Source: Mycobacteriales bacterium (GTDB lineage: Bacteria > Actinomycetota > Actinomycetes > Mycobacteriales > Mycobacteriaceae). Taken from it: 64,000 nt of DNA. This document shows positions 10,822-34,698 of this stretch, piece after piece; the stretch's first letter is position 1; each line of letters starts with the position of its first letter. The position numbers were made by a program, and so were the translations under genes. The notes under the pieces are model-generated. The model was given only the letters and a program-made list of their open reading frames with translations. It did no database searches and had not been told where the DNA came from. The stretch covers positions 1-64,000 of the forward strand of contig DUTM01000007.1 of NCBI GenBank assembly GCA_012842085.1, read 5' to 3'.

Positions 10822-10857
10822 CGGGAAGTAGGAAAGTTCGCCCTACTTCCCGTTTTT
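10822..10857 (+). terminator. Rho-independent terminator
   Basis: An 11-bp perfect stem (CGGGAAGTAGG at 10822-10832, CCTACTTCCCG at 10842-10852) followed by five T. Its end touches the stop codon of the convergent AlbA_2 gene. Confidence 0.9.
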
Positions 10858-12427: not shown

Positions 12428-12620
12428 TACGAGCTCCCTCGACTAGTTGCCGTCACCTTTGACGCTAGTGCCTCACAGGCCGTTCGGGAACGACCAACAG
12501 GGGCCTGCACACAGTGTTTCCAAAAGATTTAGCTAACTGTTAGTGGACTGTAACGGTGCGTGGGCGGGTGACGGCGGTGGGTGCGGCGTGGAGGTGGTGA
12601 CGGTGATAAAAAGATTAGTT

Positions 12621-14834
12621 TTAGGAAAAACTGGTTCGTGAATACATCTTTTTGAGAAGCTCATGTTTTTCAGCAGGCAACAACCTTTTCATCATCTGAT
12701 CAATATGTACCTCATCGACAGCATGAAAAAATTTCATTACCTCTTGTAATATGCGTGAGCTATCGATTTCTAAAAATTCTGCAGATTTTTCATTTTCAAG
12801 ATGACTTGATTCATTAAGTAATTTTTTAAAAATAGCGGACGAAAACTTCTTGGTGCCATCCCCCTGTCCATATTGTTTATCGATGTATTCAATCTGATCT
12901 AAAATATGCTCTTCGCCAGGTAACCGAAAGCTTAGATATCCCTCTACTACCTTTCGAGCTTGATTGCCTATGCCATAGTCGAGTGGTTTATTTTCGATTC
13001 TTCTCAATTCATTTGTTAATAAAAACCACATACTCAATAAGTATTCTGTTGGCTTAATGAGCAATTCTTTTGGTAATGGGTTTATAACGGTTAATCCATC
13101 GGCTGAATCGGCACAAGGAGTTCGTCTGAGCACATAAAAACCGGTGTGCTCATCATTTTTTTTGCTGGTTTTGGGAGACTTAGGTTTCTTTTTGCGGATA
13201 AGTTTTCGTAGCTGCTTTTCAGCCAAATAGCGAAAATGAAGGTTGCTGTGGGTGAGAAACAAAATTGTCGCGTTAGGCACGTACTCACTAAAAAATTGAG
13301 TAATAAAAATGTCGATCATTAAAGCACGCGTTGAATCAATTTCAGAGATGACATCGTCTAGCAAAATTAGACATTTTCCGGTGTTCTTTTTCTCACACCC
13401 ATCTAAAAGCTGAAAACAAAAGTAAAGAAATGCAATTAACTTTTTCTCACCATTCGACATATTTTCGGCTGGTTCATCTCGGCGCATTACTCGGTATGAT
13501 TTTCCGTCATCATAAAGTCTAATCTGTAGTCTCTCGCTGCCAGTAATTACAGCAAGTTGCTGATTAATTCGTTGAGAGATTTCAACAGTCGACGAAATCT
13601 CTCCCTCTTTTTCAAGCTTTTGTCGTTCTAAGCAAGATTTTTCTTTTTCAAAATTATTTTTATCTTTTTCTAGTTGTTCCCGCTGAGATCGAAGGAGTCT
13701 ATACCTCTCCTGGTAACGAGAACAGGCGGATTCTTTTAATGAACGGAGAGAGTCTTCACGAAGGTTGACTTCCTTATCTATTTTTTTCTTTACGGCATAG
13801 TAAATATCCGAAAAGTCATCATAATGTTGTTTAACTTCACCCCATTCATCGACACTAAGCGCAGGCATTTCAATTTTGTTAGAAGTCAAATCATCTGATC
13901 TTTTCCCTGCAGCTTCCCAACATTTCCAAAGCTTATTACGTAATTCTTCTGCACTAGCCACCACTCGATTTTGACTGGCTTCCCACTCTTCATCCATCAC
14001 TAGCGTTGGATTCTCTAGACCATTAAATTCACTCACCCAGTTATTTAAATGGTTATGCTGTTCTCTTAATTCATTGACTACCTTTTTGATCGCATTTTTT
14101 ATATTTTCACGTGGTAAAGCGAGTATGCCCTCTAACTCGAGAATCCTTGTTTCGGTCAAATTCCCAGTGCAGAATTTGCATTTTTTAGATTCAGCATGCA
14201 ATTCCACACCTTTTTCAAGCCATTCAATCAAGCTACTGGATTCAACTTCTCGCTGGTTTTGAGGTTTGAGAATTAGTTCGACTTGTTCTTCGGTCAATAG
14301 ATGCAGATCCGGAAGAGAAGGAAGTTTTTTAAGACGTATTTCTTTTGTTCTTAGCTGGCTTAATAATCGACGAATTTCCTCATTCTCAAGAGACTTAAGT
14401 TGTTCCTCCTTTTCTAAAAATTTAATTTTCTCCCTTCTATTAAATCGAGAAGGAGTTAGCTCGCTTATTTTTTTACTTTCTAAATCATTTGAAATCGCCT
14501 CGATAATTTTTTTGACATCTTGAGAATTATTTTTGAGTTTTGAATTTATTTCACTCAGTTCGGACTCACAGTCCTGAAGTTTTTTAGAGATTTTAACGAT
14601 TTCTCTTTTAGCAGCTGTATTTTCTTCACCAAGAATAAGCGTAATCCCATCGGCACCATTACCTTCTAAAAACTCTTGGGCATTATTTACATAATTTTGA
14701 TCAAAAATATAAAGGGGGAATTTTTCTTTTTTATCGGTTTTTGTATCAGTTTTTGTAAAATTTACTATTTCTGGATTTTTATCAAGCAATCGACAAATTG
14801 TCGTTTTCCCACTGCCATTAACGCCATAAATCAC
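12621..14834 (-). CDS. RloC-like AAA_13 ATPase, probably 5'-disrupted
   Basis: 737 residues if translation begins at GTG 14834. The frame starts almost at the P-loop (Y-G-V-N-G-S-G-K-T-T); the AAA_13 family has 20-30 residues in front of it. Long coiled coils (about 80-150 and 330-420) flank a C-K-F-C pair (Cys219, Cys222), the position of the zinc hook in RloC. A signature-like N-M-S-N-G-E-K-K and Walker B L-I-L-L-D-D-V follow at about 455-495. The C-terminal region contains R-K-V-V-E (RxxxE) and downstream histidines, which might be an anticodon-nuclease centre, but spacing was not checked against RloC or PrrC. The DNA is strikingly AT-rich. Two codons upstream of the GTG is an in-frame TGA, and the lost start of the protein can be read beyond it. 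It may be silent, weakly reinitiated, or phase-varying. Confidence 0.75.
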   Translation of the reverse strand: MIYGVNGSGKTTICRLLDKNPEIVNFTKTDTKTDKKEKFPLYIFDQNYVNNAQEFLEGNGADGITLILGEENTAAKREIVKISKKLQDCESELSEINSKLKNNSQDVKKIIEAISNDLESKKISELTPSRFNRREKIKFLEKEEQLKSLENEEIRRLLSQLRTKEIRLKKLPSLPDLHLLTEEQVELILKPQNQREVESSSLIEWLEKGVELHAESKKCKFCTGNLTETRILELEGILALPRENIKNAIKKVVNELREQHNHLNNWVSEFNGLENPTLVMDEEWEASQNRVVASAEELRNKLWKCWEAAGKRSDDLTSNKIEMPALSVDEWGEVKQHYDDFSDIYYAVKKKIDKEVNLREDSLRSLKESACSRYQERYRLLRSQREQLEKDKNNFEKEKSCLERQKLEKEGEISSTVEISQRINQQLAVITGSERLQIRLYDDGKSYRVMRRDEPAENMSNGEKKLIAFLYFCFQLLDGCEKKNTGKCLILLDDVISEIDSTRALMIDIFITQFFSEYVPNATILFLTHSNLHFRYLAEKQLRKLIRKKKPKSPKTSKKNDEHTGFYVLRRTPCADSADGLTVINPLPKELLIKPTEYLLSMWFLLTNELRRIENKPLDYGIGNQARKVVEGYLSFRLPGEEHILDQIEYIDKQYGQGDGTKKFSSAIFKKLLNESSHLENEKSAEFLEIDSSRILQEVMKFFHAVDEVHIDQMMKRLLPAEKHELLKKMYSRTSFS

Positions 14835-18029: not shown

Positions 18030-18096
18030 CGTTTTAATTTCCGCTAACTTTTCATGACAGCTAGCTGAACTGTTGTCGGTTATCTGGCAACTTGTG

Positions 18097-18127
18097 ATGC
18101 CCTCAGGGTATTCCCCGAGGGCATTTC
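18097..18127 (+). terminator. Rho-independent terminator
   Basis: The arms ATGCCCTCAGGG and CCCCGAGGGCAT pair with few mismatches around a short loop, followed by TTTCTT. It isolates the downstream operon from the small gene at 17634. Confidence 0.85.
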
Positions 18128-18159
18128 TTATTGCTGCCGCGACTGTTACGCCGGCCGCA

Positions 18160-18216: not shown

Positions 18217-21207
18217 ATGACTACGCCAAATTCTCCCGCGAGAACTTCCTCTGCCGTTTTCTCCCCCGAGGATCAGGATTCCTTGGATGCTTTAGCCCCC
18301 GGTAAAACCGTTGTTGTGCGTGACGAAACCTGGCTTGTTACCAATGTGGAACCCAGCGCGGATGGGTGGATGGTGACGGTGCGCGGCCAGTCGGAACTGG
18401 TCCAAGACACCACGGCTGTTTTCTACTCAGCACTGGACGATATTGAGCTGCTTGACCCTGCTACGGCCGAAGTGGTGGGTGACGATTCTTCCCACTACCG
18501 CATGTCGAAACTCTGGTTGGAGGCTCTACTCCGAAAGACGCCTCTCCCCTACGGCGACACCTCTCTTTCTGTCTCCCATGGCATGCTGCTGGATCCTCTG
18601 AACTACCAGGAGATGGCAGTCCGTAAGGCTCTGAGCGATGACCAATTGCGTCCCCGTATCCTGATCGCCGACACTGTTGGTTTGGGTAAGACCCTCGAGA
18701 TCGGCATGATCCTTTCCGAGCTGGTGCGCCGCGGCAGGGGTGAACGGATCCTGGTAGTCACTCCCCGCCACGTGTTGGAGCAAATGCAGCATGAACTCTG
18801 GTGCCGTTTTGCACTACCGTTTGTGCGCCTAGACTCGGCCGGTATTCAGCAGGTGCGCCGCCAACTCCCTGCCACCCGCAACCCTTTCACCTATTACAAA
18901 CGGGCCATTATTTCGCTGGATACGCTCAAGCAGCCCCGCTATAAGCACCATTTGAAGAAACAAAAATGGGACATTGTGGTTATTGACGAATGCCACAACG
19001 TAACTAACTCCAACACCCAAAACCATGAACTAGCAACGGTTCTCGCACCCAATACTGAATCTCTTATTCTCGCGTCCGCTACCCCCCACAACGGTAAAAA
19101 GGATTCTTTCGCCCGGCTTCTCCGCCTGCTGGATCCCTCCGCCGTATCTGCTGATGGGGACTTCACTAAAGAGGACGTGGAGCCTTTAGTTATTCGCCGG
19201 CACCGCCACAGCCCCGAAGTAGCCAATGAGGTGGGCGACCGCTGGGCCGAACGCGCTGAGCCAGTCAATATGATGGTCGAACCCTCCCCTGCAGAAAACG
19301 CGGTCGCGGCGGAACTCTCCACCAGGTGGTTGCATCCCGAAAGTGGCCGCTCCCCATACTCCGGCCAAACCGAGCAGCTTTTTCCCTGGACCCTTGCTAA
19401 AGCTTTCCTTTCCTCCCCTGCTGCTTTGCAGGAATCTATTGAAAACCGGCAGAAAAATATTAGCCCCATTCTCAGCAATCCGGCTGACCATCCTGTTGAG
19501 CAAGTCGCTGCCGTGCGCCACGAGATGGAGGCTCTGCGCAATCTTCACGAACTCAATGCCAAAGCCTTCTCCCCCAAAGCCGGCAAGTTCGCAGCACTAG
19601 TCAACTACTTGAAAGAAATCGGAGTCGGCAAGGACTCCCCCACTCGCGCTGTTGTCTTCGCAGAACGTGTCGCCACCCTCAACTGGCTGCAAGAGCAACT
19701 ACCGAAAGCTCTCGGGCTGCCCAAGAAGGCCGTGGAAATTATGCACGGCGGTATGCAGGACACCAGCCAGATGGAGATTATTGAACAGTTCAAACTCTCC
19801 GAATCCCCCATCCGGGTGCTGGTCACCGGCGATGTCGCCTCCGAAGGTGTCAACCTGCACGCGCAGTGCCACCACCTTATCCACTACGACATTCCTTGGT
19901 CGCTCATCCGTATTGAGCAGCGCAATGGCCGCATCGATCGCTACGGACAAGAACATCCCCCAGTGATCGCCTCCCTCATCCTGACCCCGGAAGATGAGTC
20001 CTTCTCCGGTGACATCCGGGTCCTCTCGGCACTCCTTACTAAAGAAGGCGAAGCCCACCGAACACTAGGTGACGCTTCCTCCATCATGGGCAAATATTCA
20101 GTTGCCGCGGAGGAGAAAGAAATCCGCAACGCGCTCATGGATCAGCGTGACCCGGATGAACTCTTCGCGGAGGCCGAGAAAGAGCAAGCACAAGATGATG
20201 TACTAGCTGCCCTCGGCATCTTTGACGACTACTCAGAAAACCCCGAGGAAGACACCACCCCCACCCAACAAAAAACCACTGAAGAAGGTGTCTGGTCCCT
20301 TTTCAACAGCGACCTCGACTTCCTTCAGCTTGCCCTGCAGCAAGCCTTCGATGATGTGCCGGAGCGTCCCCTCAAAAACGGTGGTGTGAACTGGGAGGTA
20401 AGTACCCGCCACAGCTACGCCAGCCTGGAACCACCCATCGATCTACAACAGCGGCTCCTCAAACTCCCGCAAGACTACCTGCGGGAAGGCCGAGTTCTGG
20501 ACACCTTCAAATTTGCTACCTCCAAGCAGGTAGGTAAAGACCAACTTGATAAAGCGCGCGAAGGACTAGGCGTCAACAACACCACCTGGCCGCAAACCCA
20601 CTTCTTGGGTCCCCTCCATCCCGTTATCGACTGGGCGGCCGACCGCGCACTAGCCAACCTGGGTCGCAACCAAATCTTCGCCATCCGGGGAGATGTAGAG
20701 AGAACCACTATTCTGCTCATGGGCACAATCTCCAACAAACGTGGACAAACTATTTCCCGCGTCTTCTACCGTGCCGAACAGCTCGACCCCAACTTACCCA
20801 ACCTATTCACCACCGAAGTCCTCAAAGATCTTCGCTTCCTTACCGAATCCACTGGTTTCAAGGAAGGCTTCCCCAACCCTGGAGCAATCGAGAACGCATC
20901 GCAGTACCAAAAATTACTTCCGCATGCGATGAAAGCTGCTAAAGGAAGTCTGCAACAGGTATTCAAAACCCAAAAAGAGCTTGCGGATGAGCGCCTCAAG
21001 ATGTGGGGCGATCGCTTCGATGAGTGGCAGCAAAATGCTGATGATCTTGAACTATATGGCGCTTCCCGCACCCAAGTTCGAGGACTTGAACAGCGCATTA
21101 AAGAGGAACGCAACTTGGCGGACTCTCTCAGCCCAGACAAATACGACCTTCGCCCACTACTAGTTATTGTTCCTGCCGACACTCCAGCTGAACCGAAGGT
21201 GATGTAA
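18217..21207 (+). CDS. DISARM DrmD-like SNF2-type helicase
   Basis: 996 residues, AAGGG site before ATG 18217. Superfamily 2 motifs are clear: Walker A region A-D-T-V-G-L-G-K-T at about 150-158, V-V-I-D-E-C-H (DECH) at about 252-258, S-A-T motif III, and in the C-terminal lobe V-T-G-D-V-A-S-E-G-V-N-L and Q-R-N-G-R-I-D-R-Y-G-Q at about 567-577, which is typical of SNF2/RapA-like translocases. The remaining 400 residues are helical without a known motif. By size and position (first gene, followed two bases later by a giant adenine methylase) it matches DrmD, the class 1 DISARM SNF2 helicase. It is expected to move on DNA with ATP. The operon is 16.4 kb with overlaps or 2-base gaps between all genes. 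Confidence 0.85.
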   Translation: MTTPNSPARTSSAVFSPEDQDSLDALAPGKTVVVRDETWLVTNVEPSADGWMVTVRGQSELVQDTTAVFYSALDDIELLDPATAEVVGDDSSHYRMSKLWLEALLRKTPLPYGDTSLSVSHGMLLDPLNYQEMAVRKALSDDQLRPRILIADTVGLGKTLEIGMILSELVRRGRGERILVVTPRHVLEQMQHELWCRFALPFVRLDSAGIQQVRRQLPATRNPFTYYKRAIISLDTLKQPRYKHHLKKQKWDIVVIDECHNVTNSNTQNHELATVLAPNTESLILASATPHNGKKDSFARLLRLLDPSAVSADGDFTKEDVEPLVIRRHRHSPEVANEVGDRWAERAEPVNMMVEPSPAENAVAAELSTRWLHPESGRSPYSGQTEQLFPWTLAKAFLSSPAALQESIENRQKNISPILSNPADHPVEQVAAVRHEMEALRNLHELNAKAFSPKAGKFAALVNYLKEIGVGKDSPTRAVVFAERVATLNWLQEQLPKALGLPKKAVEIMHGGMQDTSQMEIIEQFKLSESPIRVLVTGDVASEGVNLHAQCHHLIHYDIPWSLIRIEQRNGRIDRYGQEHPPVIASLILTPEDESFSGDIRVLSALLTKEGEAHRTLGDASSIMGKYSVAAEEKEIRNALMDQRDPDELFAEAEKEQAQDDVLAALGIFDDYSENPEEDTTPTQQKTTEEGVWSLFNSDLDFLQLALQQAFDDVPERPLKNGGVNWEVSTRHSYASLEPPIDLQQRLLKLPQDYLREGRVLDTFKFATSKQVGKDQLDKAREGLGVNNTTWPQTHFLGPLHPVIDWAADRALANLGRNQIFAIRGDVERTTILLMGTISNKRGQTISRVFYRAEQLDPNLPNLFTTEVLKDLRFLTESTGFKEGFPNPGAIENASQYQKLLPHAMKAAKGSLQQVFKTQKELADERLKMWGDRFDEWQQNADDLELYGASRTQVRGLEQRIKEERNLADSLSPDKYDLRPLLVIVPADTPAEPKVM

Positions 21208-21209
21208 CC

Positions 21210-24200
21210 ATGGCCTCATTCGACTCAATCATCATTGGTGAAGACTGGATCAGTGAACACTTCTTCACCACCGACTCCCGCAAAGAATCCTTCAACAAGG
21301 AAGTCCGCATCGCCCGCAAAGAATGGAAAGACGACTCATTCGAAGTTCCACCCTTCAGCAATTTTGAAACCGGACTCAGTGAACTCCTGGACACAGTTTC
21401 CACCACAGATCGCACCGACATAACTGCCGCCCGCGAACTCAATGCAATCGTCCGCAAAGCCCTCGGCTACCCACAGGAACTACCCGAAACAGTCGGACAC
21501 CGTGCTGACATTCCTGTCAGCGCACCAAACTCCAAATTTGCTCCCGATGGTGAAGTACTTCTCCTGGAGGCCTATCCACTCAACACCATCGAAGACCTCT
21601 TCGATGAGGAAACTGGACTGCTGCTAGACCCTATAGAGGTTGACGGGGAAGAAGTCGCCCGCACCACCAAAGCCCTTTCTGAGCTTTACCGCATGAACGA
21701 ACCACCACAATTTATCGTGCTGTTCGCAGGTAGTTGGGTTGTCATTACCGAAGCGGAACGCTGGGCAGAAGGTCGCTACCTCGCTATAAACCTGCAGCTA
21801 GTTGCAGAACGTAAAGATTCCAAGGTGGCAGGCGAAATGGAAACCGCCTACGCCTGCCTTCGCCAAGAAGCTTTCTTTCCCTCCTACGCCGACGGTGAAA
21901 TCTGGTGGAACCGAGTTCTGGAAGAATCCCGCAAACACACAGTTGGTGTGTCCGAGGATCTCCGCCGGGGCATTCGCGAGTCAGTAGAAATTATCGCCAA
22001 CGACGTAGTGAAACGTCGCTCAGCTGCCGGACTAGATAACACCACCCTGGATGCGAACGAACTAGCTAAACAAGCACTTCGTTTCCTCTATCGAATTCTT
22101 TTCATTCTTTTCGCCGAAGCATCACCCGAGCTGGAAGTGCTCCCCACGGGCGCTCCTGAATATGACGAAGGCTATGGTCTGGATCGGCTGCGGGAACTCA
22201 CTCTTGTCGAGCTCACCTCACCTAACTCCAAGAATGGCACGCATATCTATGAGTCGCTAGCTCTCCTTTTCAAACTTGTGGACCAAGGACACACCCCACA
22301 ACATGATGCAGAGGAACTAAATAACCCTGGATTGGAATTCAATAGCCTCCGAGCAGATCTCTTCTCTCCACAGGCCACAGCACTTATTGATGAGGTGAAG
22401 CTTGGAAACCACGCCGCACAGCGCGTACTCCAAAATCTTCTTCTCACGGATCCCAACTCCAAGAACCAAGACCGCGGGTTCATTAGCTATGCCGAACTAG
22501 GTATTAACCAGCTGGGATCCGTGTATGAGGGTCTTATGTCCTATTCCGGATTCTTGGCTAATGAAGACCTCTACGAAGTCGCACCCAAAGGAGACGCGAC
22601 ACACGGAAGTTGGGTTGTCCCGGTTACACAAGCAGATTCCATAGACGAAAAAGACTTCGTTAAAAAGACTGACCCAAATACTGGGGAAACCAAACCTGTC
22701 CTCCACCCCAAAGGCGCATTTGTTTATCGTTTATCTAACCGGGAACGCCAGCGCTCTGCCTCCTACTACTCACCCGAAGTGCTTACACGATTTGTGGTGA
22801 GCCAGACCTTGGCAGAACTGTTGGATCAAGACGACAAACAAACGACTGCCGATGAGATTCTCAACTTCACTGTGTGTGAGCCTGCACTGGGCTCGGGCGC
22901 GTTCGCGATTGAAGCCGTTCGGCAGCTTGCTACCGAGTATCTGAAGCGCAAACAGGAAGAACTAGGCGAGATCATTCCTGCCGAAGACTATCCGGTTGAG
23001 CTGCAAAAAGTGAAAGCGCATATTGCTTTGCACCAAGTTTATGGCGTCGACCTCAACTCGACTGCTGTGGAGCTAGCAGAAATTTCGCTCTGGTTGGACA
23101 CCATGTTTTCCGGACTGCGCGCCCCTTGGTTTGGTCTCCATCTACGTCGCGGCAATTCGCTACTAGGTGCGCGTCATGAGGTTTACAACAAGAAATCTCT
23201 CAAGAGCAAAAACTGGACCAAGTATCCAGGAATTTCGACATCGATTACTGAACCTGTACAAGAGGGTCAGGTTTACCACTTTTTGCTGCCCCGTGCTGAT
23301 TGGGCTGCAGTTGCTAATCATAAAGAAGCGAAAACCTTAGCGAAAGATGATTGCAAGACACTTCGCGACTGGCGCAATTCCATGCTTCGCAACCCAAGTG
23401 CAAAGAATCTTAAGCGGTTACATAATCTTTCAAAACGTGTAGATGTCCTCTGGCATCACACACTTCTACGCCTGCAAATTGCAGAGCGGGAAATTCATCG
23501 CGAGATTGATATTTGGGGGCACCCGAAACAAAATCACGAAACAAGCATCAGTCGTGAACAGGTAGAAACAACACTTGGGAACCCTGATAGCGCTTATCAA
23601 CGTCTACGCCTGGTAATGGATTCTTGGATGGCCTTCTCCTTCTGGCCCACCACAGTCGATAGCAAAATCCTTCCCACGTTTGAGGAGTGGGTTGACTTTC
23701 TAGAAGACACGCTGGGCAAGTCTAGCTCCAAGAAAAACAAAGATGACAACCAGATTGATCTTTTTACTGCAACCGACTGGAATGCGCTCAATGAGTTTGA
23801 AGAACTCGACCATGCATTTAGTGGCGCACTTTCTCGAGACCAACTAAACGAGAAATATCCTTGGCTCCGGATCACCCAAAAGCTGACACAGAGGGAAGGA
23901 TTCTTCCATTGGGAGCTTGACTTTGCTCCCGTGTTCGACAAGGGTGGTTTCGATTTTCAGATCGGTAATCCACCGTGGGTTCGACCAGATTGGGACGAAC
24001 AAGGCACTCTTGCGGAGCTCGATGCTTGGTGGCAGCTCAATAAAAAAGCTTCAGCACCTTTAAAGAGTCAGAATAAGAAAAAACTGTTACAGATACCCTC
24101 AAATAGGACATTTTATTTAGAGGAACTCGCCAGCAACACTGGTCTTATCACGACAGTTAAAGCGACAGCAGATTTTCCTTTACTGGCGAATTTAAGACCT

Positions 24201-25787
24201 GATCTTTATCGCTGTTTTATGACTATGACATCGCATAATGCAGCCTCTACGGGAGCGATCGGACTTATCCACCCTGAGAGTCATTTCAGTGAAAAAAGAG
24301 CTAAGGGATTACGCAGTAATACGTACAAGCGATTACGCCGCCATTTTCATTTCCACAATGAACTTTTACTTTTTGACGTCGACCACCGAACTGACTTCGG
24401 AGTACATATTTATGGTGCACCCCAGACTCCAAAATTCATTCAACTAACCCATCTTTATCATCCCGACACAGCTGAAAGATCCTTCAAACATGACGGGACT
24501 GGTGACCTTCCCGGAATTAAAGATCCTGACGGTAACTGGGATCTACGACCCCATAAGAAACGCATTACACACGTTGACCTGAACACACTACAAGTTTGGG
24601 CGTCTTTAACCGAGGATGAAAATACTGCTCCAAACCAAACCAGGATGCTTTACCTTGTCACAGATGAAGTTGAACATGTGGCTGAAAAGCTCTCCCAGAA
24701 TCCGCGTCTTTGGGAAATCTCTTATCAGTGGACAAGTGGGTGGAATGAAACAACGGATCGAAGAAAAGGATACTTCCATCGAGAAAGCATCATCCCTAAT
24801 TCGCTAGATGAGCTAATTATCTTAGGGCCTCATTTCACGATTAACCAGCCCTTCTTCAGAACATCAAATCCGACGATGAAGCATAACCAGGATTACACAG
24901 AGCTAAATCTTGAGGAACTTCCTGAAGACTTTATTCCTAGAACAAACTATGCACTATCGATAAGTAAAGACGAAGCTGCTGAGCTGTACCCAAAGTGGAT
25001 TGATCCTGAAACTAATAAAAAAGTACCAAGCACTAACTTCTATACAATTGCTTGGCGTTCAATGGTGGGCCCTGCCGCATTTAGGACATTTCAGCCCGCG
25101 TTACTAGCACCCGGAATTCGTCATCCGCACGGTGTAGTAACCGCAATTTTTTCCTCGCAAGAAATACTTGCATTAACAGCAGGCATTTGGTCATCAATCT
25201 GCATAGATTTTATCTTTAAGATTGCTTCAGCTTCACACGCAAATGATGCTTTTATGAAACTACTTCCCGTAGTAAACAAACATCCCCTCAAAGCTGAAAT
25301 GATTCTCAGAGTTCTCCGATTAAATAGCTTAACCACTGCATACAAAGACCTTTGGGATAATCTATTCGAGCCAATATGGCTTAAAGATGACTGGGTGCCA
25401 CAAATAACTACCACTCGCAGAAACCGCAGCTCCGTAGGAAAAGTAGAACGAAACTGGAATATGGCTACCCCCTTACGCATAGCTCAAGATCGTAGGCAGG
25501 CTCAGGTGGAGATTGATGCAATTGCTGCCATCATGCTTGGTCTAGATGCCGACGATCTCGAAGCAATCTATCTAACTTTCTTCCCAGTGCTCAAACAAAA
25601 TTACGAAGACAGAACTGTTTTTGATCCACATGGTCGGCAACTGGATTGGGAAGATGCCAAACCCTACATCAACGATGGTGAACCCCTTCCGGAAGATCAC
25701 GTAACTGTCGACCGCGTGCGCGATATGCGACTCGCCTACAACCACTTCACGAAGATTCTCAAAGAACGCGAGGCTGGTGAGAACTAA
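21210..25787 (+). CDS. Giant N6-adenine DNA methyltransferase, DrmMI-like
   Basis: 1525 residues. Motif I (SAM binding) is E-P-A-L-G-S-G-A-F at about 556-564, followed by G-V-D-L-N-S-T-A-V-E-L-A; the catalytic motif IV I-G-N-P-P-W is at about 916-921. The 350-residue distance between them and the large flanking regions resemble DrmMI/PglX and Eco57I-type enzymes. There is no obvious nuclease motif. Residues about 940-1420 (24.0-25.5 kb) lie where target recognition would be expected, and this stretch is visibly more AT-rich than the rest of the gene. The expected role is to mark host DNA so that the helicase complex spares it. The stop TAA overlaps the next start (TAATG), giving strict translational coupling. 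Confidence 0.85.
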   Translation: MASFDSIIIGEDWISEHFFTTDSRKESFNKEVRIARKEWKDDSFEVPPFSNFETGLSELLDTVSTTDRTDITAARELNAIVRKALGYPQELPETVGHRADIPVSAPNSKFAPDGEVLLLEAYPLNTIEDLFDEETGLLLDPIEVDGEEVARTTKALSELYRMNEPPQFIVLFAGSWVVITEAERWAEGRYLAINLQLVAERKDSKVAGEMETAYACLRQEAFFPSYADGEIWWNRVLEESRKHTVGVSEDLRRGIRESVEIIANDVVKRRSAAGLDNTTLDANELAKQALRFLYRILFILFAEASPELEVLPTGAPEYDEGYGLDRLRELTLVELTSPNSKNGTHIYESLALLFKLVDQGHTPQHDAEELNNPGLEFNSLRADLFSPQATALIDEVKLGNHAAQRVLQNLLLTDPNSKNQDRGFISYAELGINQLGSVYEGLMSYSGFLANEDLYEVAPKGDATHGSWVVPVTQADSIDEKDFVKKTDPNTGETKPVLHPKGAFVYRLSNRERQRSASYYSPEVLTRFVVSQTLAELLDQDDKQTTADEILNFTVCEPALGSGAFAIEAVRQLATEYLKRKQEELGEIIPAEDYPVELQKVKAHIALHQVYGVDLNSTAVELAEISLWLDTMFSGLRAPWFGLHLRRGNSLLGARHEVYNKKSLKSKNWTKYPGISTSITEPVQEGQVYHFLLPRADWAAVANHKEAKTLAKDDCKTLRDWRNSMLRNPSAKNLKRLHNLSKRVDVLWHHTLLRLQIAEREIHREIDIWGHPKQNHETSISREQVETTLGNPDSAYQRLRLVMDSWMAFSFWPTTVDSKILPTFEEWVDFLEDTLGKSSSKKNKDDNQIDLFTATDWNALNEFEELDHAFSGALSRDQLNEKYPWLRITQKLTQREGFFHWELDFAPVFDKGGFDFQIGNPPWVRPDWDEQGTLAELDAWWQLNKKASAPLKSQNKKKLLQIPSNRTFYLEELASNTGLITTVKATADFPLLANLRPDLYRCFMTMTSHNAASTGAIGLIHPESHFSEKRAKGLRSNTYKRLRRHFHFHNELLLFDVDHRTDFGVHIYGAPQTPKFIQLTHLYHPDTAERSFKHDGTGDLPGIKDPDGNWDLRPHKKRITHVDLNTLQVWASLTEDENTAPNQTRMLYLVTDEVEHVAEKLSQNPRLWEISYQWTSGWNETTDRRKGYFHRESIIPNSLDELIILGPHFTINQPFFRTSNPTMKHNQDYTELNLEELPEDFIPRTNYALSISKDEAAELYPKWIDPETNKKVPSTNFYTIAWRSMVGPAAFRTFQPALLAPGIRHPHGVVTAIFSSQEILALTAGIWSSICIDFIFKIASASHANDAFMKLLPVVNKHPLKAEMILRVLRLNSLTTAYKDLWDNLFEPIWLKDDWVPQITTTRRNRSSVGKVERNWNMATPLRIAQDRRQAQVEIDAIAAIMLGLDADDLEAIYLTFFPVLKQNYEDRTVFDPHGRQLDWEDAKPYINDGEPLPEDHVTVDRVRDMRLAYNHFTKILKEREAGEN

Positions 25788-28700
25788 TGAGTGGTCTGCT
25801 ACCTAGCCTCCAGGTTGAGCGTCTCCAAGAGGCACTCACCGACTACCTCACCACCACCTTTGCTCTCACCGACAAAGAAACACGGGAAGCCGCCACCAGC
25901 TTCATCACCCACCCAACCGACGGGATCTATGTTGGCCCCTACCTCAACATAAGCATCCCGTTCGCCCAAACCGAAGACAACACCAGCGAGGTATTCGACT
26001 GGTACGAAGGGTACCCACCCTACGGGCACCAAGCGGCCGCCTACAGCCGACTTAGCAGCAAAACAAACAATCGTCCCCAACCAACCCTCGTGACCACCGG
26101 TACTGGTAGTGGTAAAACCGAGGCCTTCCTCTACCCCATCCTCGACCACGTACTCCGCGCCAAAAAAGAAGGCATCACCGGCACCAAAGCGCTCATCATC
26201 TACCCCATGAACGCGCTTGCAGCAGACCAAGCAGACCGACTCACCGAACTACTCACTACTCAGGACCAACTCCGGCAAATCACCGCCGCCATCTACACCG
26301 GAGACCAAGACAACAGCCGTACTGCCGTCAGCCGCCGCGGACTCATCAACAACAAAGACGTCATCCGGGACAAAGCACCAGACATCCTCCTCACCAACTA
26401 CAAAATGCTGGACCAACTCCTCCTCCGCCCAGCAGACGCACGCCTCTGGAAACAAAGCGCAGACAGCCTCCAATACCTAGTACTCGACGAATTCCACACC
26501 TACGATGGTGCCCAAGGCACAGACGTCGCCATGCTACTGCGGCGCCTCGGCCACACCCTCAATCAACACCGCACCAAACCCAGCCCCAGCAGCAACCCTC
26601 TTTACCCCGTCACCCCCGTAGCCACCAGTGCCACTTTGGGTGAAGACGATCCAGACACTATGCTGCACTTCGCCGAAACGGTCTTCGGCCAACAGTTCCC
26701 AGCAGACAGCGTCATTCGGGAAACCCGCCAAAACCAACAAGAATGGTCCAGCAAAGCACCCCTCGACTTTGCCCAACAACATGACGTCGACCCCATCACC
26801 ACCCGTGCCGACGACGCCAACATTCTTATCAAAGAACACCTCCAATCAACCGACCACACTCGCGAAAACTATGGGGAAGCAGTCACCCGAGCCGTCCTCC
26901 ACACCCTCTACACCCCCAGCAGAATAGGTGACAACAGCGACGAGTGGACCACCAACCTACTCCACCCGGAAAACCTGCTCAACACGGCACGCACCCATCC
27001 CCTCATCAACAGTCTGCTGCAAATTGTACAACGCGCCGGCGGCACCATCCACATGGATGAACTCGCCCAGAAACTCTTCCCGCTCCCTCCCAGTCGCCGC
27101 GACCAAACCACGTGGGATCAAGAAGCCCGCAGCTACCTCAACTACCTACTTGCTTTCCTCTCCTACACTCGCCAACAAGCCGGCCGCGACGCCCCCAGCA
27201 TCAACATTCACCTTTGGCTCCGTGAACTCAGCCGCATAGACCGCAGCGTCACCCCCACCACCCACTTCCGGTGGAAAGACGACGGCACCACCAGCGACAA
27301 CGAACTGTGGCTACCAGCCCTCTACTGCCGCAGCTGTGGCCGCTCCGGATGGGGGGCCGTGCTCACACCGGGGGAAAACTCCCTCGACCTCACCTACTCC
27401 AATCCGCGTCGCGCCAGCGTCACCAAAGATGGACGCTTCCGGGCCCTCATGAACGCACCACTGGAAGGCGAAAAACAACAAAACAACCCGGAAGAACACA
27501 TCCCTGGGCTCATGTGGTTTAACAACAGTGTTGGCAGCCTCAACTTCACACCACCCAAAACCACCGACCCGGAACTAGAGGAAGGCAACATTCTGCCGGT
27601 CATCTGCGACATGAGCGCAGACGCCGAAAAACATGCCCAAGACCAAACCTGCCCCTGCTGCGGCACCAAAGACAGCATCCGCTTCCTAGGCTCCGCCATC
27701 GCCACCCAACTCTCCGTCAACCTCAGCACCCTCTTTGGAGACGAAAACCTCGACCACAACGAGAAGAAAGCACTCGTTTTCACCGACAGTGTGCAAGACG
27801 CCGCTCACCGCGCCAGCTTTGTACAAAGCCGTAGCCACACCCTCGGGTTCCGCACCAAACTCCGCAGCAGCATCCCCGAAACCCCCACTCCACTGCCGGA
27901 CATCATCCACAACATTATTAGCGGCGCCACCACCAACTACGCCCGCTACCAGCTACTCCCACCCGACCTTGCGGCACGTAAAAACTTCAACAACTACTGG
28001 GATCCTGCCGAACAGAAAAACGGGAAAGTACCCAAAGGTACTGAACGGCTCATCGAAGACCGCATCCTCTTCGACGCGGAACTAGAATTCGGGCTCTTCG
28101 GCCGCTACGGACGCACCCTCGAAATCACCGGCAGCGCCACAGCCGAAGTCGACGTCGACAAATACGGAGACCCTGCCGAATTCGGACAGCTAGCACTCAC
28201 TCACTGCCAAGAAAACAACCCCACGCAACAAAGCCTCCACAACTACGAACCCAACACACAGCACCTAGCAGCGTGGGTGCGGGGAACCGTCTACCGCATA
28301 CGCATCCAAGGCGGCATCAACCACCCCTACCTGAAAGCTTTCATCAATGAAGAAGGCAACCGCTGGCGCCTATGGGGAGGACGCAACTTGAGCCGCGGAG
28401 TACCCGCATTCCCAGCCGGACGACCCACCCCCAGCTTCCCCTACACCAGCGGAAACAGACGCAAAAAGAGCGAATTCGACAATGCGCTCTCCTACCAAAG
28501 CTGGTACAGCAACTGGACCAGCACCTGCCTGGGCATCAACCGGCACGACGCCCCCGCCTACACTCGCAGCCTGCTCCACATTCTGAGTGAAAAAGGTGTC
28601 CTCAACACCCACACCACAAAAAGCGGCGCTACCGTCTACAGCCTCAAACCAGCAGACATACTTGTTGCCAGCACCCCCAGTGGGCAACCTGCAGAAGTCC

Positions 28701-31700
28701 TGGAATGTGACACCTGTGGCAGCATCTATCCAGCTGGAGACTGCAGCCTTAGCCAACTAGACGGTGCACCCTGCCACGCGCCCGACTGCATCGGCACCCT
28801 TCACCGCGCCATCACCGAACCCAACTTCTACCAAGACTTCTACAACAGCAAACACAGCCAACGCGTCATCGCCCACGAACACACCTCACTCCTCGACAAT
28901 GACGAACGCAAAGAAATAGAAGACCACTTCAAAAACGAAACCAGCGCCGCCAACGCCCCCAACGTGCTGGTCGCCACCCCCACCCTAGAGATGGGCATCG
29001 ATATTGGGGACCTCTCCACCGTCATGCTTTCCAGTCTTCCCAAAGGGGTCGCCAACTATCTCCAGCGCATAGGTCGCGCCGGCCGCCGCGACGGCAGCAG
29101 CCTCGCCATCACCCACGTTGCAGGCTATGGAGAAAACCTCACCAAACTGCATGAACCGCTCAACACCATTGCGGGGGAAGTCCGCCCACCAGCAACATTT
29201 CTGGATGCACAAGAAATCCTGCAACGGCAGTTCATCGCCTACCTACTAGACAACCTGGCAGCCAACGAAGTCAACAACATCCCCAAACGTGCCAAACACA
29301 TTTTCACACTCGGGGAAGGCAGCTGGCTTTACAAACTACTCGACGACCTCAAAGCCAATACCGAGAAACGAGTCGAGGTCTTCCTTGACAGCTTTGGCGA
29401 CCTTTTGAGTGAAGGGGCGAAAACACACCTTCGGGAATGGACAACATTTCCCGACGATGGGAGCCTCAGCCCACTTGAGAACTATTTGCAGGACGCCATC
29501 AACCGCCACACGCTGCACATAGAACGCATCAACGATGAGCTGCGACTCGTCGACCAGAAACTCAAAGAACTCCACAAAGAAGTAAACAACACCCCCGACA
29601 AGTCCAAAAAAGACCAGTACGCGAGTGCCCTCGCCACCCGCAAACTACTGCGCGCCCAACTCAACCGCGAAAACGTTGGGGACACCTGGATACAAGCACT
29701 CGAACGCTACGGGCTGCTGCCCAACTACACCCTGCTCGATGATGACGTCACCCTAAACGTCAGCATCAGCTGGATAGATGACAACGACGGCGACCAAACC
29801 GGCATCTTCAAATCCGACCAATTCGACTACAGCCGCAACAAGGCCACCGCCCTCTACGAACTCGCACCCGGCAGTACCTTCTATGCGAAAGGTCTCAGCA
29901 TCAGCATCAACGCTGTGGACATGGGCAAAAACGGCAACGCCGTCGAACACTGGCAGATTTGTCCCGACTGCGGACATGTTGAGATCTTCCGCTCCGGTGA
30001 CCACCGCGAAATGCCGGACACCTGCCCCACCTGCAACAGTCCCGCCTTCGCCGACCAAGGCCAGTCCCTCCAGGTCGTCGAAATGAAGAGCGTCTCCGCC
30101 GACATCTCGCGCGACCGCAGCTACATTGGCGACAAAGAAGAACAACGACGCCGCAGCCACTACAGCGTGGCCGCCCTTCCCGATCTCGCACCCCAAAACG
30201 TCACCCACACCTGGCACACCAACTATGGGGACCTAGAAGTCGACTTCTTCCGCGACACCACCGTCCGGTGGCTCAACCTCGGCCGCGCCACCACCGGCAG
30301 CCAACAACGCACGTATGGTAGCAACACCTACACCAGCGATCTATTCCGGGTCTGTCCCATCTGCGGCCAACTCGACACCTATGCTGGCGAAAACAGATTC
30401 AATGAACACCGCAGCTGGTGCCCCAACCGTGACACCCACGAAGAACCCACCAAAACCATCGCCATTAGCCGCACTCTCAAAACCCAGGCGGTCCTCCTCC
30501 ATCTGCCCAAACAACTGCTGTGGGACACTTACGCCTATCCCTCGCTAGCTGCCGCTATCAAACTGGGATTGCGTGAAACTATTGGTGGCAGCCCAGAGCA
30601 CTTGGATGTCATCACCGTGGGGGACGCGCTCAACAATCCTGGTCACCAGGGGCTCATGATCATTGATACTGTCCCCGGGGGAACCGGCTACCTGGCAGAG
30701 TTTTCCAACCCGGAGAAAATCCATGCTGTTCTGGCGAACGCCAGGCGCATCCTGCAAGAATGCGAATGCCAAAACGATGCCCGCAACGCCTGCCACAAGT
30801 GCCTTCTTCCCTTCGCCATGGGGCTCGACGCCCAGCACGTAAGTCGCGTAACTGGGCTGAAAGCAATCAACACGCTTTTGGGCTGCGAAGCTGAAGAAGA
30901 AACACCTACCCTTGCAGACTGGGATGTCGAAGAAGGCCGCCGCAACCCGGAAGAAGTGGCAGAAGCGGAACCTGCCAGTGCCCTCGAGCAGCAATTCCAC
31001 TTCGCATTTCTAAAAGAACTGCAATCCGCCAACTGCACTGTTGACCAGGATCCTGGCCCCTACATGCCTACCGCCCGGATCATCACCGCCGGTCAGCATG
31101 AATGGATGCTGACACCCCAAGTAGATAAGGGCTACACCAAGCCCGACTTCCAGCTGAAGCTACGCACTGGGCAGTTCCCGGCAATCAATATTTATCTAGA
31201 CGGCAAAGCCTTCCATGCCAGTGTTGGCTGCAACAACATTGACGACGACGCCATGAAACGTCAACGCATCCGGCTGGAAGACGACGAATTAGTATGGAAC
31301 ATCACCTACGACGATCTTAAACACTTCACCGCGGATCGAGAAGAGCTCAACCTTCCCTGGCTTACCAATATTGACCAAGCACTGCACAACCTAGATGCTC
31401 CCAGCAAGCTGCGAGGAATCCTCAAAAAAGACGCCATCAGCCAGCTCATTGAACTCATAAATCTGCCGGACATTAGCGAATGGCAGAACTATGCCAGCCG
31501 CGTCTTAGTGCACCTTCTCAACCGTGCGAAACGTGCCGGAGGAACACTGGCTGGGCATGTACAAAATGAGAGAACACCCCACCCCATCCATCTCAACCAG
31601 TTCACCAAGGATTTTCTGCTCACCCACAAAACCCCACCCCACGACAGGAGCGAAGGGGAACAATACGCCAGCTGGTACGACAACACTGGCTTTCCCGGTC

Positions 31701-32230
31701 TTGCCATCGGATGTGCCCTGAACGCAATTGATTTACGTGACCAAAACAAGCTGGCACCCACCCACATTGCTTGCACTCTCCTGCTAGATGGTTCCGATGA
31801 TCAGCTTCGCGAGGATGAGGGTGCAGCGTGGCAACAGTGGCTGCGGCTGGCCAATATTGTGGGATTCCTCGACAACACGGTTATCAGCACCCTCGCAAAT
31901 GTGGACAGTGAAACCGAGCCCCTCATCTACCGTCGCGGTGAAAAACCACGCCCCATGTTCGATGTCGCGTACCAGCCGCTCATCGACGACGCCCTCGACG
32001 ACGTCGAAGAAAACATGCTCAAAGAACTTGCTCGGCAGGGCCTCCCGGTACCAAAAGTTGGTGCCGAACTTTCCAACGGGGACGTCGCCGACCTGGTTTG
32101 GCCAGACCTACACATTATTAGTTTCCGGGACGAAGAATTCTGTGACCCGGAAGCCCACAAAGAGGCATGGACCATTGTTCCTTTCGACAGTGAAACCATT
32201 GCCGCCACCATCAAGGAGAAGACGCAGTAA
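25787..32230 (+). CDS. Giant DUF1998 helicase, DrmA-DrmB/DruE-like, with nuclease-like C-terminus
   Basis: 2147 residues. Residues 1-300: DEAD-like lobe with T-G-T-G-S-G-K-T at about 105-112, V-L-D-E-F-H at about 230-235 and T-S-A-T. Residues about 1055-1105: second lobe with T-L-E-M-G-I-D-I-G and Q-R-I-G-R-A-G-R-R. Several paired-cysteine clusters (C-R-S-C, C-P-C-C, C-D-T-C, C-P-D-C, C-P-I-C) lie between and after. Residues about 1565-1675: a DUF1998/MZB-like domain ending C-H-K-C-L-L-P-F. Residues about 1730-1845: P-D-F ... Y-L-D-G-K-A-F-H ... K-R-Q-R-I-R-L followed by a tryptophan strand, resembling Vsr/DUF559-type PD-(D/E)XK nucleases. In DISARM the helicase (DrmA) and DUF1998 (DrmB) parts are separate proteins; here they are one, more like Druantia DruE. 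The start overlaps the methylase stop. Confidence 0.85.
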   Translation: MSGLLPSLQVERLQEALTDYLTTTFALTDKETREAATSFITHPTDGIYVGPYLNISIPFAQTEDNTSEVFDWYEGYPPYGHQAAAYSRLSSKTNNRPQPTLVTTGTGSGKTEAFLYPILDHVLRAKKEGITGTKALIIYPMNALAADQADRLTELLTTQDQLRQITAAIYTGDQDNSRTAVSRRGLINNKDVIRDKAPDILLTNYKMLDQLLLRPADARLWKQSADSLQYLVLDEFHTYDGAQGTDVAMLLRRLGHTLNQHRTKPSPSSNPLYPVTPVATSATLGEDDPDTMLHFAETVFGQQFPADSVIRETRQNQQEWSSKAPLDFAQQHDVDPITTRADDANILIKEHLQSTDHTRENYGEAVTRAVLHTLYTPSRIGDNSDEWTTNLLHPENLLNTARTHPLINSLLQIVQRAGGTIHMDELAQKLFPLPPSRRDQTTWDQEARSYLNYLLAFLSYTRQQAGRDAPSINIHLWLRELSRIDRSVTPTTHFRWKDDGTTSDNELWLPALYCRSCGRSGWGAVLTPGENSLDLTYSNPRRASVTKDGRFRALMNAPLEGEKQQNNPEEHIPGLMWFNNSVGSLNFTPPKTTDPELEEGNILPVICDMSADAEKHAQDQTCPCCGTKDSIRFLGSAIATQLSVNLSTLFGDENLDHNEKKALVFTDSVQDAAHRASFVQSRSHTLGFRTKLRSSIPETPTPLPDIIHNIISGATTNYARYQLLPPDLAARKNFNNYWDPAEQKNGKVPKGTERLIEDRILFDAELEFGLFGRYGRTLEITGSATAEVDVDKYGDPAEFGQLALTHCQENNPTQQSLHNYEPNTQHLAAWVRGTVYRIRIQGGINHPYLKAFINEEGNRWRLWGGRNLSRGVPAFPAGRPTPSFPYTSGNRRKKSEFDNALSYQSWYSNWTSTCLGINRHDAPAYTRSLLHILSEKGVLNTHTTKSGATVYSLKPADILVASTPSGQPAEVLECDTCGSIYPAGDCSLSQLDGAPCHAPDCIGTLHRAITEPNFYQDFYNSKHSQRVIAHEHTSLLDNDERKEIEDHFKNETSAANAPNVLVATPTLEMGIDIGDLSTVMLSSLPKGVANYLQRIGRAGRRDGSSLAITHVAGYGENLTKLHEPLNTIAGEVRPPATFLDAQEILQRQFIAYLLDNLAANEVNNIPKRAKHIFTLGEGSWLYKLLDDLKANTEKRVEVFLDSFGDLLSEGAKTHLREWTTFPDDGSLSPLENYLQDAINRHTLHIERINDELRLVDQKLKELHKEVNNTPDKSKKDQYASALATRKLLRAQLNRENVGDTWIQALERYGLLPNYTLLDDDVTLNVSISWIDDNDGDQTGIFKSDQFDYSRNKATALYELAPGSTFYAKGLSISINAVDMGKNGNAVEHWQICPDCGHVEIFRSGDHREMPDTCPTCNSPAFADQGQSLQVVEMKSVSADISRDRSYIGDKEEQRRRSHYSVAALPDLAPQNVTHTWHTNYGDLEVDFFRDTTVRWLNLGRATTGSQQRTYGSNTYTSDLFRVCPICGQLDTYAGENRFNEHRSWCPNRDTHEEPTKTIAISRTLKTQAVLLHLPKQLLWDTYAYPSLAAAIKLGLRETIGGSPEHLDVITVGDALNNPGHQGLMIIDTVPGGTGYLAEFSNPEKIHAVLANARRILQECECQNDARNACHKCLLPFAMGLDAQHVSRVTGLKAINTLLGCEAEEETPTLADWDVEEGRRNPEEVAEAEPASALEQQFHFAFLKELQSANCTVDQDPGPYMPTARIITAGQHEWMLTPQVDKGYTKPDFQLKLRTGQFPAINIYLDGKAFHASVGCNNIDDDAMKRQRIRLEDDELVWNITYDDLKHFTADREELNLPWLTNIDQALHNLDAPSKLRGILKKDAISQLIELINLPDISEWQNYASRVLVHLLNRAKRAGGTLAGHVQNERTPHPIHLNQFTKDFLLTHKTPPHDRSEGEQYASWYDNTGFPGLAIGCALNAIDLRDQNKLAPTHIACTLLLDGSDDQLREDEGAAWQQWLRLANIVGFLDNTVISTLANVDSETEPLIYRRGEKPRPMFDVAYQPLIDDALDDVEENMLKELARQGLPVPKVGAELSNGDVADLVWPDLHIISFRDEEFCDPEAHKEAWTIVPFDSETIAATIKEKTQ

Positions 32231-32232
32231 AC

Positions 32233-34572
32233 ATGGCAAACATTGTTATCGCCTCCCAAAACAACAACATGTCGGAGACCGACGGGTCGCTGCGCACTGC
32301 TGTCTTCAACTTCATGACCAAGCTGGCCGAAGACCACACCACCAACGGACTCCATGTGGAGCCCATCCACCACAGTGTTGATCCCCGTGCGCGCACCGCC
32401 CGCGTCAACCAGCAATTCCGCGCAGTCCTCTTCCAGCTTGAAGACCAAGACGACGACACCCCCACCTTCGTCTACTACGGCACCTGGAACCATGATGACG
32501 CCATCGATATTGCCCGGCGCACCAGCATCAAAGTGAACCCCGTCAACGGCACTGTCGAAACCCTGGATGAGGTGACGGAGAGACGGGCGGAAGAAGACCA
32601 CGAAGAATACCTTTACGCCATCCAAAAACAGACCGAAGCCATTGAAAAGGGCATGCGGGCAGCGGATACAGCAGCACAGGAGGAGGCGAAACGCCAAAAG
32701 GAACTTGCGGAGAAGCGCAAGTACTTCGCTCTCCCCTACGACAAGGAGCAACTTACCGACAAGCTGGGACTCCCCGAGAAGCTTGCCACCCGCATTCTGG
32801 ATGCGCAGTCGGAGGAAGAAGTTCTCCACATTGCCGAAAAGGATCCGATCCCGTGGCGGCAGAGTGTCATTCTTGATCTGGCGGTCAAAACCAGCATCGA
32901 TGAGATCTGGCAGAAGATGCAGTTCGAGGATGTGAAACTGAGCGAAGAGGAAGCGTCCTCCGATAAGGCGATCCTGGAAGCCACCAAACGTCCCGCCAGT
33001 AAAATGCAGTTCACCTACGCCAAAAACCAGGAAGAACTGCAGCGCGTCATTGAAGGTGGAGACATGGGTGCGTGGCGTGTCTTTCTGCACCCAGAGCAGC
33101 GCCGCTACGCTGAGCGGGATTACAATGGCCCCTTCCGTTTAGTTGGTGGCGCTGGTACAGGCAAGACGGTCATACTTTTACACCGAACACAACGTTTAGC
33201 GGAAGAAGACCCACACTCACGTATTGTTCTCACAACTTTCAATACCGCGTTAGCAGACAATCTTGGCCGAGATCTCAACACTCTTGATCCAGACCTAACT
33301 CAATCCTCGCAGCTGGGAGAAGAGGGTATCTACACCAAAGGTCCGGACTCCATAGCAAAATCGGTATTAACCAGCGAACACCTGAGCAACTATGTTGAGC
33401 AAGCCGGTATGAAAATACTGGGAAGCAGTAATGTTGCTAGTTTCCGAGGACGCATCTCCAACCACACCATTGGAAATGTCTGGGAAGAAGCTATCTCCCA
33501 AGCCAACGTAGAACTTGAACCACACCTCACCAATACGACATTTCTGGAGTCGGAGTACGTGCATGTTGTGTTGGGCAACCAGATCACTAAGCTCGTGCAA
33601 TATGCTCGTGTCTCTCGTGCTGGACGAGGCAGCCGGCTTGGCCGTCAACAACGCATAGATCTATGGAAAGTTTTCGAAAAATATCGGGAAAACAATATTT
33701 TTAACTACCGGTTGAGCTATCCCGAAGTGCTAGCTATAGCTGCAGAAGCACTCAAACTCTATGCTGAGGCCGAAAACGCTTACCTAGCAGACTATGTTCT
33801 GATCGACGAAGGGCAAGACCTAAGCCCTGCACACTGGCTATTCATTCGAGCGCTGGCTGCGCCCGGAGAAAACGATATTTTCATCTGCGAAGACAACCAC
33901 CAGCGCATATATAGCCATCCGATTGTGCTCAGCCGCTACGGTATTGAAACTAAAGGACGTTCCCGCACCCTCAAACTCAATTACCGAACCACTGCCGAGA
34001 ACCTGCACTTCGCCCAACAAATCCTCAAAGGCGGGAACTACGTGGACATGGAGGACATTGCGGAAAGCACGGAAGGCTATGTCTCGGCCCGCTCCGGCCC
34101 CAAACCCACCATCATCCACGCCGAGGATTTGGGTGACGAGCTCGACAAGATTACCGCCGCGGTCCAGACGTGGATCGACGACCGGAAAGTCAACCCTGAC
34201 ACCATCGCAGTGCTCACCCGCACCACCAAACAGCAGTCGCTGTATGCGGATGGCCTTATCGATCGTGGACTCCCAGCCACCACCTCCGTCAGCCACCCCA
34301 CCCCTGGCACTATTCGAGTAATGACCATGCACCGCTCCAAAGGCATGGAGTTTACGCATGTTGTGCTGCCCGGGCTTACCAAAGCCTATCTCCCCATGGG
34401 ATCCATGCTGGAAGACCTTGATGAAGAGGAACAACTCGACGCGATCCTGCGCGAACGCAGCCTCTTCTATGTGGCTGCCACCCGTGCCCGCGATAAGCTA
34501 CTGCTCAGCCACTCTGGCGATCCGACAGAATTCCTGAGTGCGATAACAGCTGAAGTGGAACTGGAGAACTAA
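32233..34572 (+). CDS. UvrD-like superfamily 1 helicase with RelE-like N-terminus
   Basis: 779 residues, last gene of the operon, two bases after the DUF1998 helicase. Superfamily 1 motifs: G-G-A-G-T-G-K-T at about 306-313, L-I-D-E-G-Q-D at about 521-527, N-Y-R-T motif IV, M-T-M-H-R-S-K-G-M-E-F at about 697-707 and Y-V-A-A-T-R-A-R near 746. Residues about 45-105 (R-T-A-R-V-N-Q-Q-F-R-A-V-L-F ... W-N-H-D-D-A-I-D-I-A) have the strand-HDxA pattern of RelE/ParE-like domains seen at the start of some actinobacterial UvrD helicases. A coiled region links the two. No PLD nuclease (DrmC) follows; this gene occupies its place. The segment 33.1-34.0 kb is more AT-rich than the rest, as if exchanged by recombination. 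Confidence 0.85.
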   Translation: MANIVIASQNNNMSETDGSLRTAVFNFMTKLAEDHTTNGLHVEPIHHSVDPRARTARVNQQFRAVLFQLEDQDDDTPTFVYYGTWNHDDAIDIARRTSIKVNPVNGTVETLDEVTERRAEEDHEEYLYAIQKQTEAIEKGMRAADTAAQEEAKRQKELAEKRKYFALPYDKEQLTDKLGLPEKLATRILDAQSEEEVLHIAEKDPIPWRQSVILDLAVKTSIDEIWQKMQFEDVKLSEEEASSDKAILEATKRPASKMQFTYAKNQEELQRVIEGGDMGAWRVFLHPEQRRYAERDYNGPFRLVGGAGTGKTVILLHRTQRLAEEDPHSRIVLTTFNTALADNLGRDLNTLDPDLTQSSQLGEEGIYTKGPDSIAKSVLTSEHLSNYVEQAGMKILGSSNVASFRGRISNHTIGNVWEEAISQANVELEPHLTNTTFLESEYVHVVLGNQITKLVQYARVSRAGRGSRLGRQQRIDLWKVFEKYRENNIFNYRLSYPEVLAIAAEALKLYAEAENAYLADYVLIDEGQDLSPAHWLFIRALAAPGENDIFICEDNHQRIYSHPIVLSRYGIETKGRSRTLKLNYRTTAENLHFAQQILKGGNYVDMEDIAESTEGYVSARSGPKPTIIHAEDLGDELDKITAAVQTWIDDRKVNPDTIAVLTRTTKQQSLYADGLIDRGLPATTSVSHPTPGTIRVMTMHRSKGMEFTHVVLPGLTKAYLPMGSMLEDLDEEEQLDAILRERSLFYVAATRARDKLLLSHSGDPTEFLSAITAEVELEN

Positions 34573-34593
34573 GCGAAAGAAGCATAAAAGAAA

Positions 34594-34632
34594 CCTCCCC
34601 GGAATGGCCCTAACACTCGGGGAGGCTTCTTG
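34594..34632 (+). terminator. Terminator of the DISARM-like operon
   Basis: Stem CCTCCCCG (34594-34601) with CGGGGAGG (34618-34625), followed by CTTCTT. It lies 21 bases after the UvrD-like gene. Confidence 0.8.
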
Positions 34633-34698
34633 CGGTCGCGCTAATGCGCGAGTCTTTTCGTTACATCACACGCTTCGTGCGATTATTGCTGATGGCGG

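Follow-up and report, generated by a model that had tools for sequence, protein, structure and literature searches.

ARMADA was defined in a 2025 preprint by Bell et al. (PMC12458937), in which Type II consists of genes for RapA-like, PglX-like, YprA and UvrD proteins that are co-directional and stand in a strict order. The Type II system of E. coli guards against a range of phages, and its action is non-abortive, with infected cells remaining viable. Each of the four genes is required for protection, and mutations of motif residues affect defence (PMC12458937). Here we describe an operon in a 64,000-nt stretch of DNA (hereafter the window) from a draft genome in 151 contigs that is 85% complete. 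Its best overall explanation is an ARMADA Type II anti-phage system that is complete, appears intact and works by a restriction-like mechanism, a reading to which we assign a probability of roughly 0.85. The host is a member of the Mycobacterium/Corynebacterium family with a small genome, and its ARMADA II would be both complete and divergent.

Gene layout and identity of the operon

Four open reading frames, all on the forward strand, span positions 18217-34572 of the window and encode proteins of 996, 1525, 2147 and 779 aa. The first gene, armA (18217..21207), encodes a SNF2/RapA helicase of the BrxHII/DrmD-like kind with Pfam SNF2 and Helicase_C domains, and the second, armB (21210..25787), a PglX/DrmMI-like adenine methyltransferase with an Eco57I-type adenine methyltransferase match. 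These are followed by armC (25787..32230), which encodes a YprA-family helicase with DEAD, Helicase_C and MZB (DUF1998) domains, the last a zinc-binding domain (PF09369) at residues 1587-1673 (30545..30805), and by armD (32233..34572), which encodes a UvrD/GajB-like helicase with a Pfam UvrD match. A 2-nt gap separates armA from armB, armB and armC overlap by 1 nt, and a further 2-nt gap precedes armD. The coordinates, lengths, junctions and domain readings of an earlier note on this DNA, including the GSGAF and NPPW motifs of ArmB, were all confirmed, as was its placing of a UvrD-like helicase last, although it missed the RelE-like N-terminus of that protein and the nuclease-like domain at the C-terminal end of ArmC. 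GC content within the operon ranges over 45-58%; at third codon positions armB is the poorest in GC, with a GC3 of 0.46 versus 0.61-0.68 for the other three genes.

The same note had placed terminators on both flanks, and hairpins are indeed present at both ends on the forward strand. The upstream hairpin (18094..18132), which has a T-rich tail and probably terminates the DUF6508 gene before it, folds with -21.6 kcal/mol (z -4.3; region 18090-18140), and the downstream one (34590..34632), also with a T-rich tail and 3' of armD, is the probable operon terminator (-31.2 kcal/mol, z -4.0; region 34580-34650). A consensus scan gave no excess of terminators over shuffled sequences. A few kilobases from the operon, a low-GC AAA_13 ATPase gene on the minus strand (12621-14834; PADLOC candidate PDC-S06) adjoins a Schlafen/AlbA_2 gene of the same strand (10856-12427), and the pair (10856-14834) is possibly a second defence patch.

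We compared the operon with the tested ARMADA II locus of E. coli ATCC 8739, which has the same gene order, with armA and armB 2 nt apart and armB and armC overlapping by 1 nt. Homology extends over long alignments in all four proteins, with identities of 36% for ArmA (815 alignment columns), 34% for ArmB (1371), 28% for ArmC (2251) and 31% for ArmD (764). All eight residues mutated in PMC12458937 are identical in the window (ArmA K158 and D257; ArmB G561 and N920; ArmC K110 and D234; ArmD K311 and D525); among them, ArmA K158 is the Walker residue, ArmB G561 belongs to motif I and ArmB N920 to the NPPW motif. We also reconstructed an ArmC tree by a quick method from 22 Type II sequences, three Type I loci and four DruE-like sequences, in which the DruE branch is long and DISARM DrmA is not represented; the window sequence falls inside the Type II clade with 100% SH-aLRT support, and the Type I and DruE sequences fall outside. 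The Type I loci were those of Mesorhizobium, with YprA first, and of Natrinema and Planktothrix, with YprA third, and none has an adjacent ArmD. Given the gene order, the long homology and the ArmC tree, together with the RelE fold of ArmD and the nuclease signature of the ArmC C-terminus described below, sequence comparison identifies the operon almost certainly as ARMADA Type II (armA-armB-armC-armD).

The operon is a further copy of an already named system and not a new one. The earlier note had described it as DISARM-related and possibly a new subtype; the relationship to DISARM stands, as that of a distinct type, but the operon is not a DISARM subtype, and the suggested novelty falls away, as ARMADA Type II already comprises these four genes in this order (PMC12458937). 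The further suggestion that DrmA and DrmB functions reside in a single DruE-like chain is borne out by the 2147-aa ArmC, which carries DEAD, Helicase_C and MZB domains together.

Nuclease-like and RelE-like domains

The C-terminal part of ArmC contains a putative Vsr/MTES_1575-like nuclease domain (about residues 1731-1845; 30977..31321), in which E1734, Q1778, D1787, G1806, H1810 and R1825 are invariant across 36 sequences. Of these homologues, 13 match Pfam MTES_1575 and one matches Vsr; the window copy on its own matches no Pfam nuclease, and a fold search with its C-terminus gave nothing significant. We consider this Vsr-like domain likely to be an active nuclease. No PLD nuclease match was found among the four operon proteins or the flanking genes tested, in agreement with the absence of DrmC reported previously; a nuclease function is probably retained in the nuclease-like domain that forms part of the fused ArmC chain.

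The predicted model of ArmD residues 1-215 has a pLDDT of 91.6, and its best matches in the PDB are YoeB, YafQ, RelE and ParE. According to this model, the N-terminus (residues 1-113; 32233..32571) is a RelE-superfamily fold, and among homologues of this domain R63 is invariant and H87 nearly so. When the RelE-like part of ArmD and the ArmC C-terminus were compared by sequence with solved structures, no useful match emerged.

Distribution, linkage and insertion site

We surveyed 401 genomes of the same family and counted ArmC when it was long. Besides the window's own genome, a long ArmC is encoded in 63, all of which also encode ArmA, and only three genomes in this count have ArmA and no long ArmC. 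A generic RapA protein was ruled out as the identity of the first gene, 63 of the 66 family genomes with ArmA also carrying ArmC. The ARMADA II loci collected belong to Actinomycetota, Bacillota, Pseudomonadota and Cyanobacteriota, among others. In the neighbour survey suggested by the earlier note, linkage of the four genes proved strict, with ArmD directly after ArmC in 106 of 106 loci and ArmA adjoining ArmB in 68 of 70; these loci were gathered by similarity to ArmC in an alignment-based contig scan, so they do not gauge how often distant ArmC relatives stand alone. A single-protein scan gave no matches.

In the nearest genome (G001), the one other member of the same genus compared, about 150 nt separate the homologues of the DUF6508 and TenA genes, and this interval contains no ARMADA. 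In the window, the ARMADA operon and an SDR gene occupy this interval. The left side differs as well, panB being located elsewhere in G001, and we therefore regard this site as an ARMADA-free counterpart and not as a clean scar. Mobile-element borders were sought in and near the operon; inverted repeats were absent, and the one direct repeat, of 19 nt, is at chance level.

Two further patterns were seen in relatives. A DruE-like helicase, next to a protein of about 1140-1160 aa that is matched by no PADLOC model, was noted at L070 4196-12519, at L072 3464-11874 and in 17 genomes of the family, where its distance from ARMADA II is 9-20 kb; these ARMADA-near helicases recall the Druantia-ARMADA islands of E. 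coli. In some relatives, two or three ArmD paralogues are present, either in tandem 3' of ArmC or inside the seam described below (L073 3655-5814, 16372-18582 and 18661-20898; L180 8752-10911; genomes G120, G250, G310 and G388).

The ArmB-ArmC seam in relatives

The junctions of the operon differ in how often they are interrupted. Of 80 loci, 27 have more than 300 nt of extra DNA between ArmB and ArmC, a few of these cases reflecting split open reading frames; the corresponding counts are 2 of 70 between ArmA and ArmB and 0 of 106 between ArmC and ArmD. Inserts at the ArmB-ArmC seam reach about 40 kb, and ArmA and ArmC, both on one contig and strand, are more than 10 kb and up to 45 kb apart in 11 of 59 family genomes; two such loci were inspected, and in both ArmA and ArmB are kept together. 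Proteins encoded in the inserts include an Avs3a-like protein, an AriA-like ATPase, AbiU, HEC-06/Orf5-type proteins and PDC-S15. The ArmB-ArmC seam (L044-L069 and L073-L152; genomes G388, G282 and others) is an insertion hot spot, often with other defence genes. In the window itself it is bare, with no insert, no recombinase and no inverted ArmB cassette.

A tyrosine recombinase (PF00589) is present at this seam in several lineages. Relatives sharing 62-70% identity lie just 5' of ArmC in G026, G018, G269, G263 (where the ArmC match is short), Kribbia (L078) and Galbitalea (L085), and another such relative lies about 2 kb upstream of ArmC in G129; the next matches to this ARMADA-linked recombinase have 46% identity or less. 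Where the contig allows, the recombinase is accompanied by an ArmB cassette in opposite orientation that corresponds to residues ~1003 onward. Such silent C-terminal cassettes, on the opposite strand and together with the recombinase, were located between ArmB and ArmC at L044 6905-9129, L057 3686-9038, L085 182-3217 and L178 8502-10894, and at the seams of L177, L078 and L179. Long inverted repeats accompany the cassette in L044, L057 and L178; none was found in L085, probably due to the contig starting inside ArmB.

From this arrangement, the opposite-strand cassette and recombinase likely form an invertible, phase-variable specificity switch. In relatives, comparison of the active with the silent cassettes shows conserved and variable blocks alternating along the C-terminal half of ArmB, which fits a role in specificity for this half of the protein. 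We consider it fairly probable that in ARMADA II A+B and C+D each form a rigid half and meet at an open seam that may hold, depending on lineage, either a recombinase with an inverted silent ArmB cassette that switches DNA specificity or further defence genes, the window representing the bare form. The main text of the ARMADA paper (PMC12458937) contains no occurrence of "phase", "invert" or "inversion" and mentions neither seam nor switch. The seam and the recombinase-linked ArmB cassettes of relatives are the parts worth following: if cassette switching takes place, self/non-self discrimination by ARMADA becomes directly testable, because the two cassette orientations should yield different methylomes.

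Proposed mechanism and alternative explanations

By analogy with the E. coli system, the window operon would be expected to defend its own host. ArmB would recognise a short DNA sequence and methylate adenine in host DNA as a mark of self. Phage DNA entering the cell would lack this mark, and ArmA, the SNF2 motor, and ArmC, the YprA helicase, would assemble and translocate on it with help from the UvrD helicase ArmD, after which the putative Vsr-like nuclease of ArmC would destroy or block the phage genome and the cell would survive. The RelE-like domain of ArmD may also contribute, possibly by acting on RNA. We lean narrowly towards this restriction-like scheme as a whole, with ArmB in self-marking, ArmA, ArmC and ArmD as motors and ArmC as nuclease; the E. 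coli mutants and non-abortive behaviour support a direct mechanism of this kind (PMC12458937).

One may postulate that the same ARMADA II operon acts by abortive infection, with the RelE-like domain of ArmD as a toxin freed on infection. The RelE-superfamily fold and its invariant R63 and near-invariant H87 are consistent with such a role, but E. coli cells carrying ARMADA II remain viable and the action is non-abortive (PMC12458937), and we regard a toxin-based mechanism as unlikely. It is far less probable that the window operon is a remnant that has lost its activity, or that it serves housekeeping DNA repair and has no part in defence. YprA helicases act in repair too, as in the case of MrfA (PMC12458937), and no mobile-element genes were seen directly beside the operon; the four long frames are nevertheless intact with all tested motifs present, the distribution is patchy (63 of 401 family genomes), the nearest genome has no operon at the matching site, and an MZB-containing helicase of 828 aa is encoded separately in the window's genome.

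The remaining alternative is that the operon belongs to class 1 DISARM as a variant that has fused DrmA with DrmB, dispensed with DrmC and gained a UvrD helicase. ArmA does score best on DrmD models and ArmB matches DrmMI models, but the ArmA score of 346.5 bits is well short of the NCBIfam DrmD cut-off of 610, ArmB reaches 1347 bits on a "type IIG" model versus 179 on DrmMI, and ArmC reaches 310 bits on DruE models versus 65 on DrmA. With neither a separate DrmB nor a PLD nuclease, and with the identical four-gene set already a named class, a DISARM variant is extremely improbable, and ARMADA Type II remains our preferred reading.

Comparison with known systems

DISARM class 1 shares with the window a DrmD-like protein, a DrmMI-like protein and a YprA helicase, but it has separate DrmA and DrmB genes and the PLD nuclease DrmC, and the window operon has neither. 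Membership in this class was ruled out by the sub-cut-off DrmD score, the one-chain ArmC and the missing PLD nuclease. Druantia III has in common with the window a DruE-like YprA helicase, although only the helicase motors of E. coli DruE align with ArmC (35% over 230 aa). It was likewise ruled out, as ArmC lies outside the DruE sequences of the tree and no DruH-like match was found among the four operon proteins. The match of ArmB to the PADLOC model PDLC03611 (type IIG RM), at 1347 bits, spans almost the whole protein, and ArmB proteins of ARMADA are probably among those that carry this label. ARMADA may lie concealed behind DISARM- or Druantia-like calls, since a 2023 defence library labels ArmB as type IIG and assigns the remaining three proteins to other systems as fragments.

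ARMADA Type I shares homologues of ArmA, ArmB and YprA with the window, in the order A-B-YprA in some archaea and cyanobacteria, but it is without ArmD and its YprA falls in a separate, fully supported clade; it was ruled out for the window operon by the position of ArmC in the tree and the presence of ArmD. ARMADA Type II of E. coli differs from the window operon in its protein sequences (28-36% identity), in a shorter ArmD linker between the RelE-like and helicase parts, and in its islands, which have Druantia or Zorya neighbours of which none was identified in the window. The systems of E. coli NCTC 12900 and ATCC 8739 nevertheless have the same four genes as the window operon, in the same order and with the same tight junctions, domains and tested motif residues.
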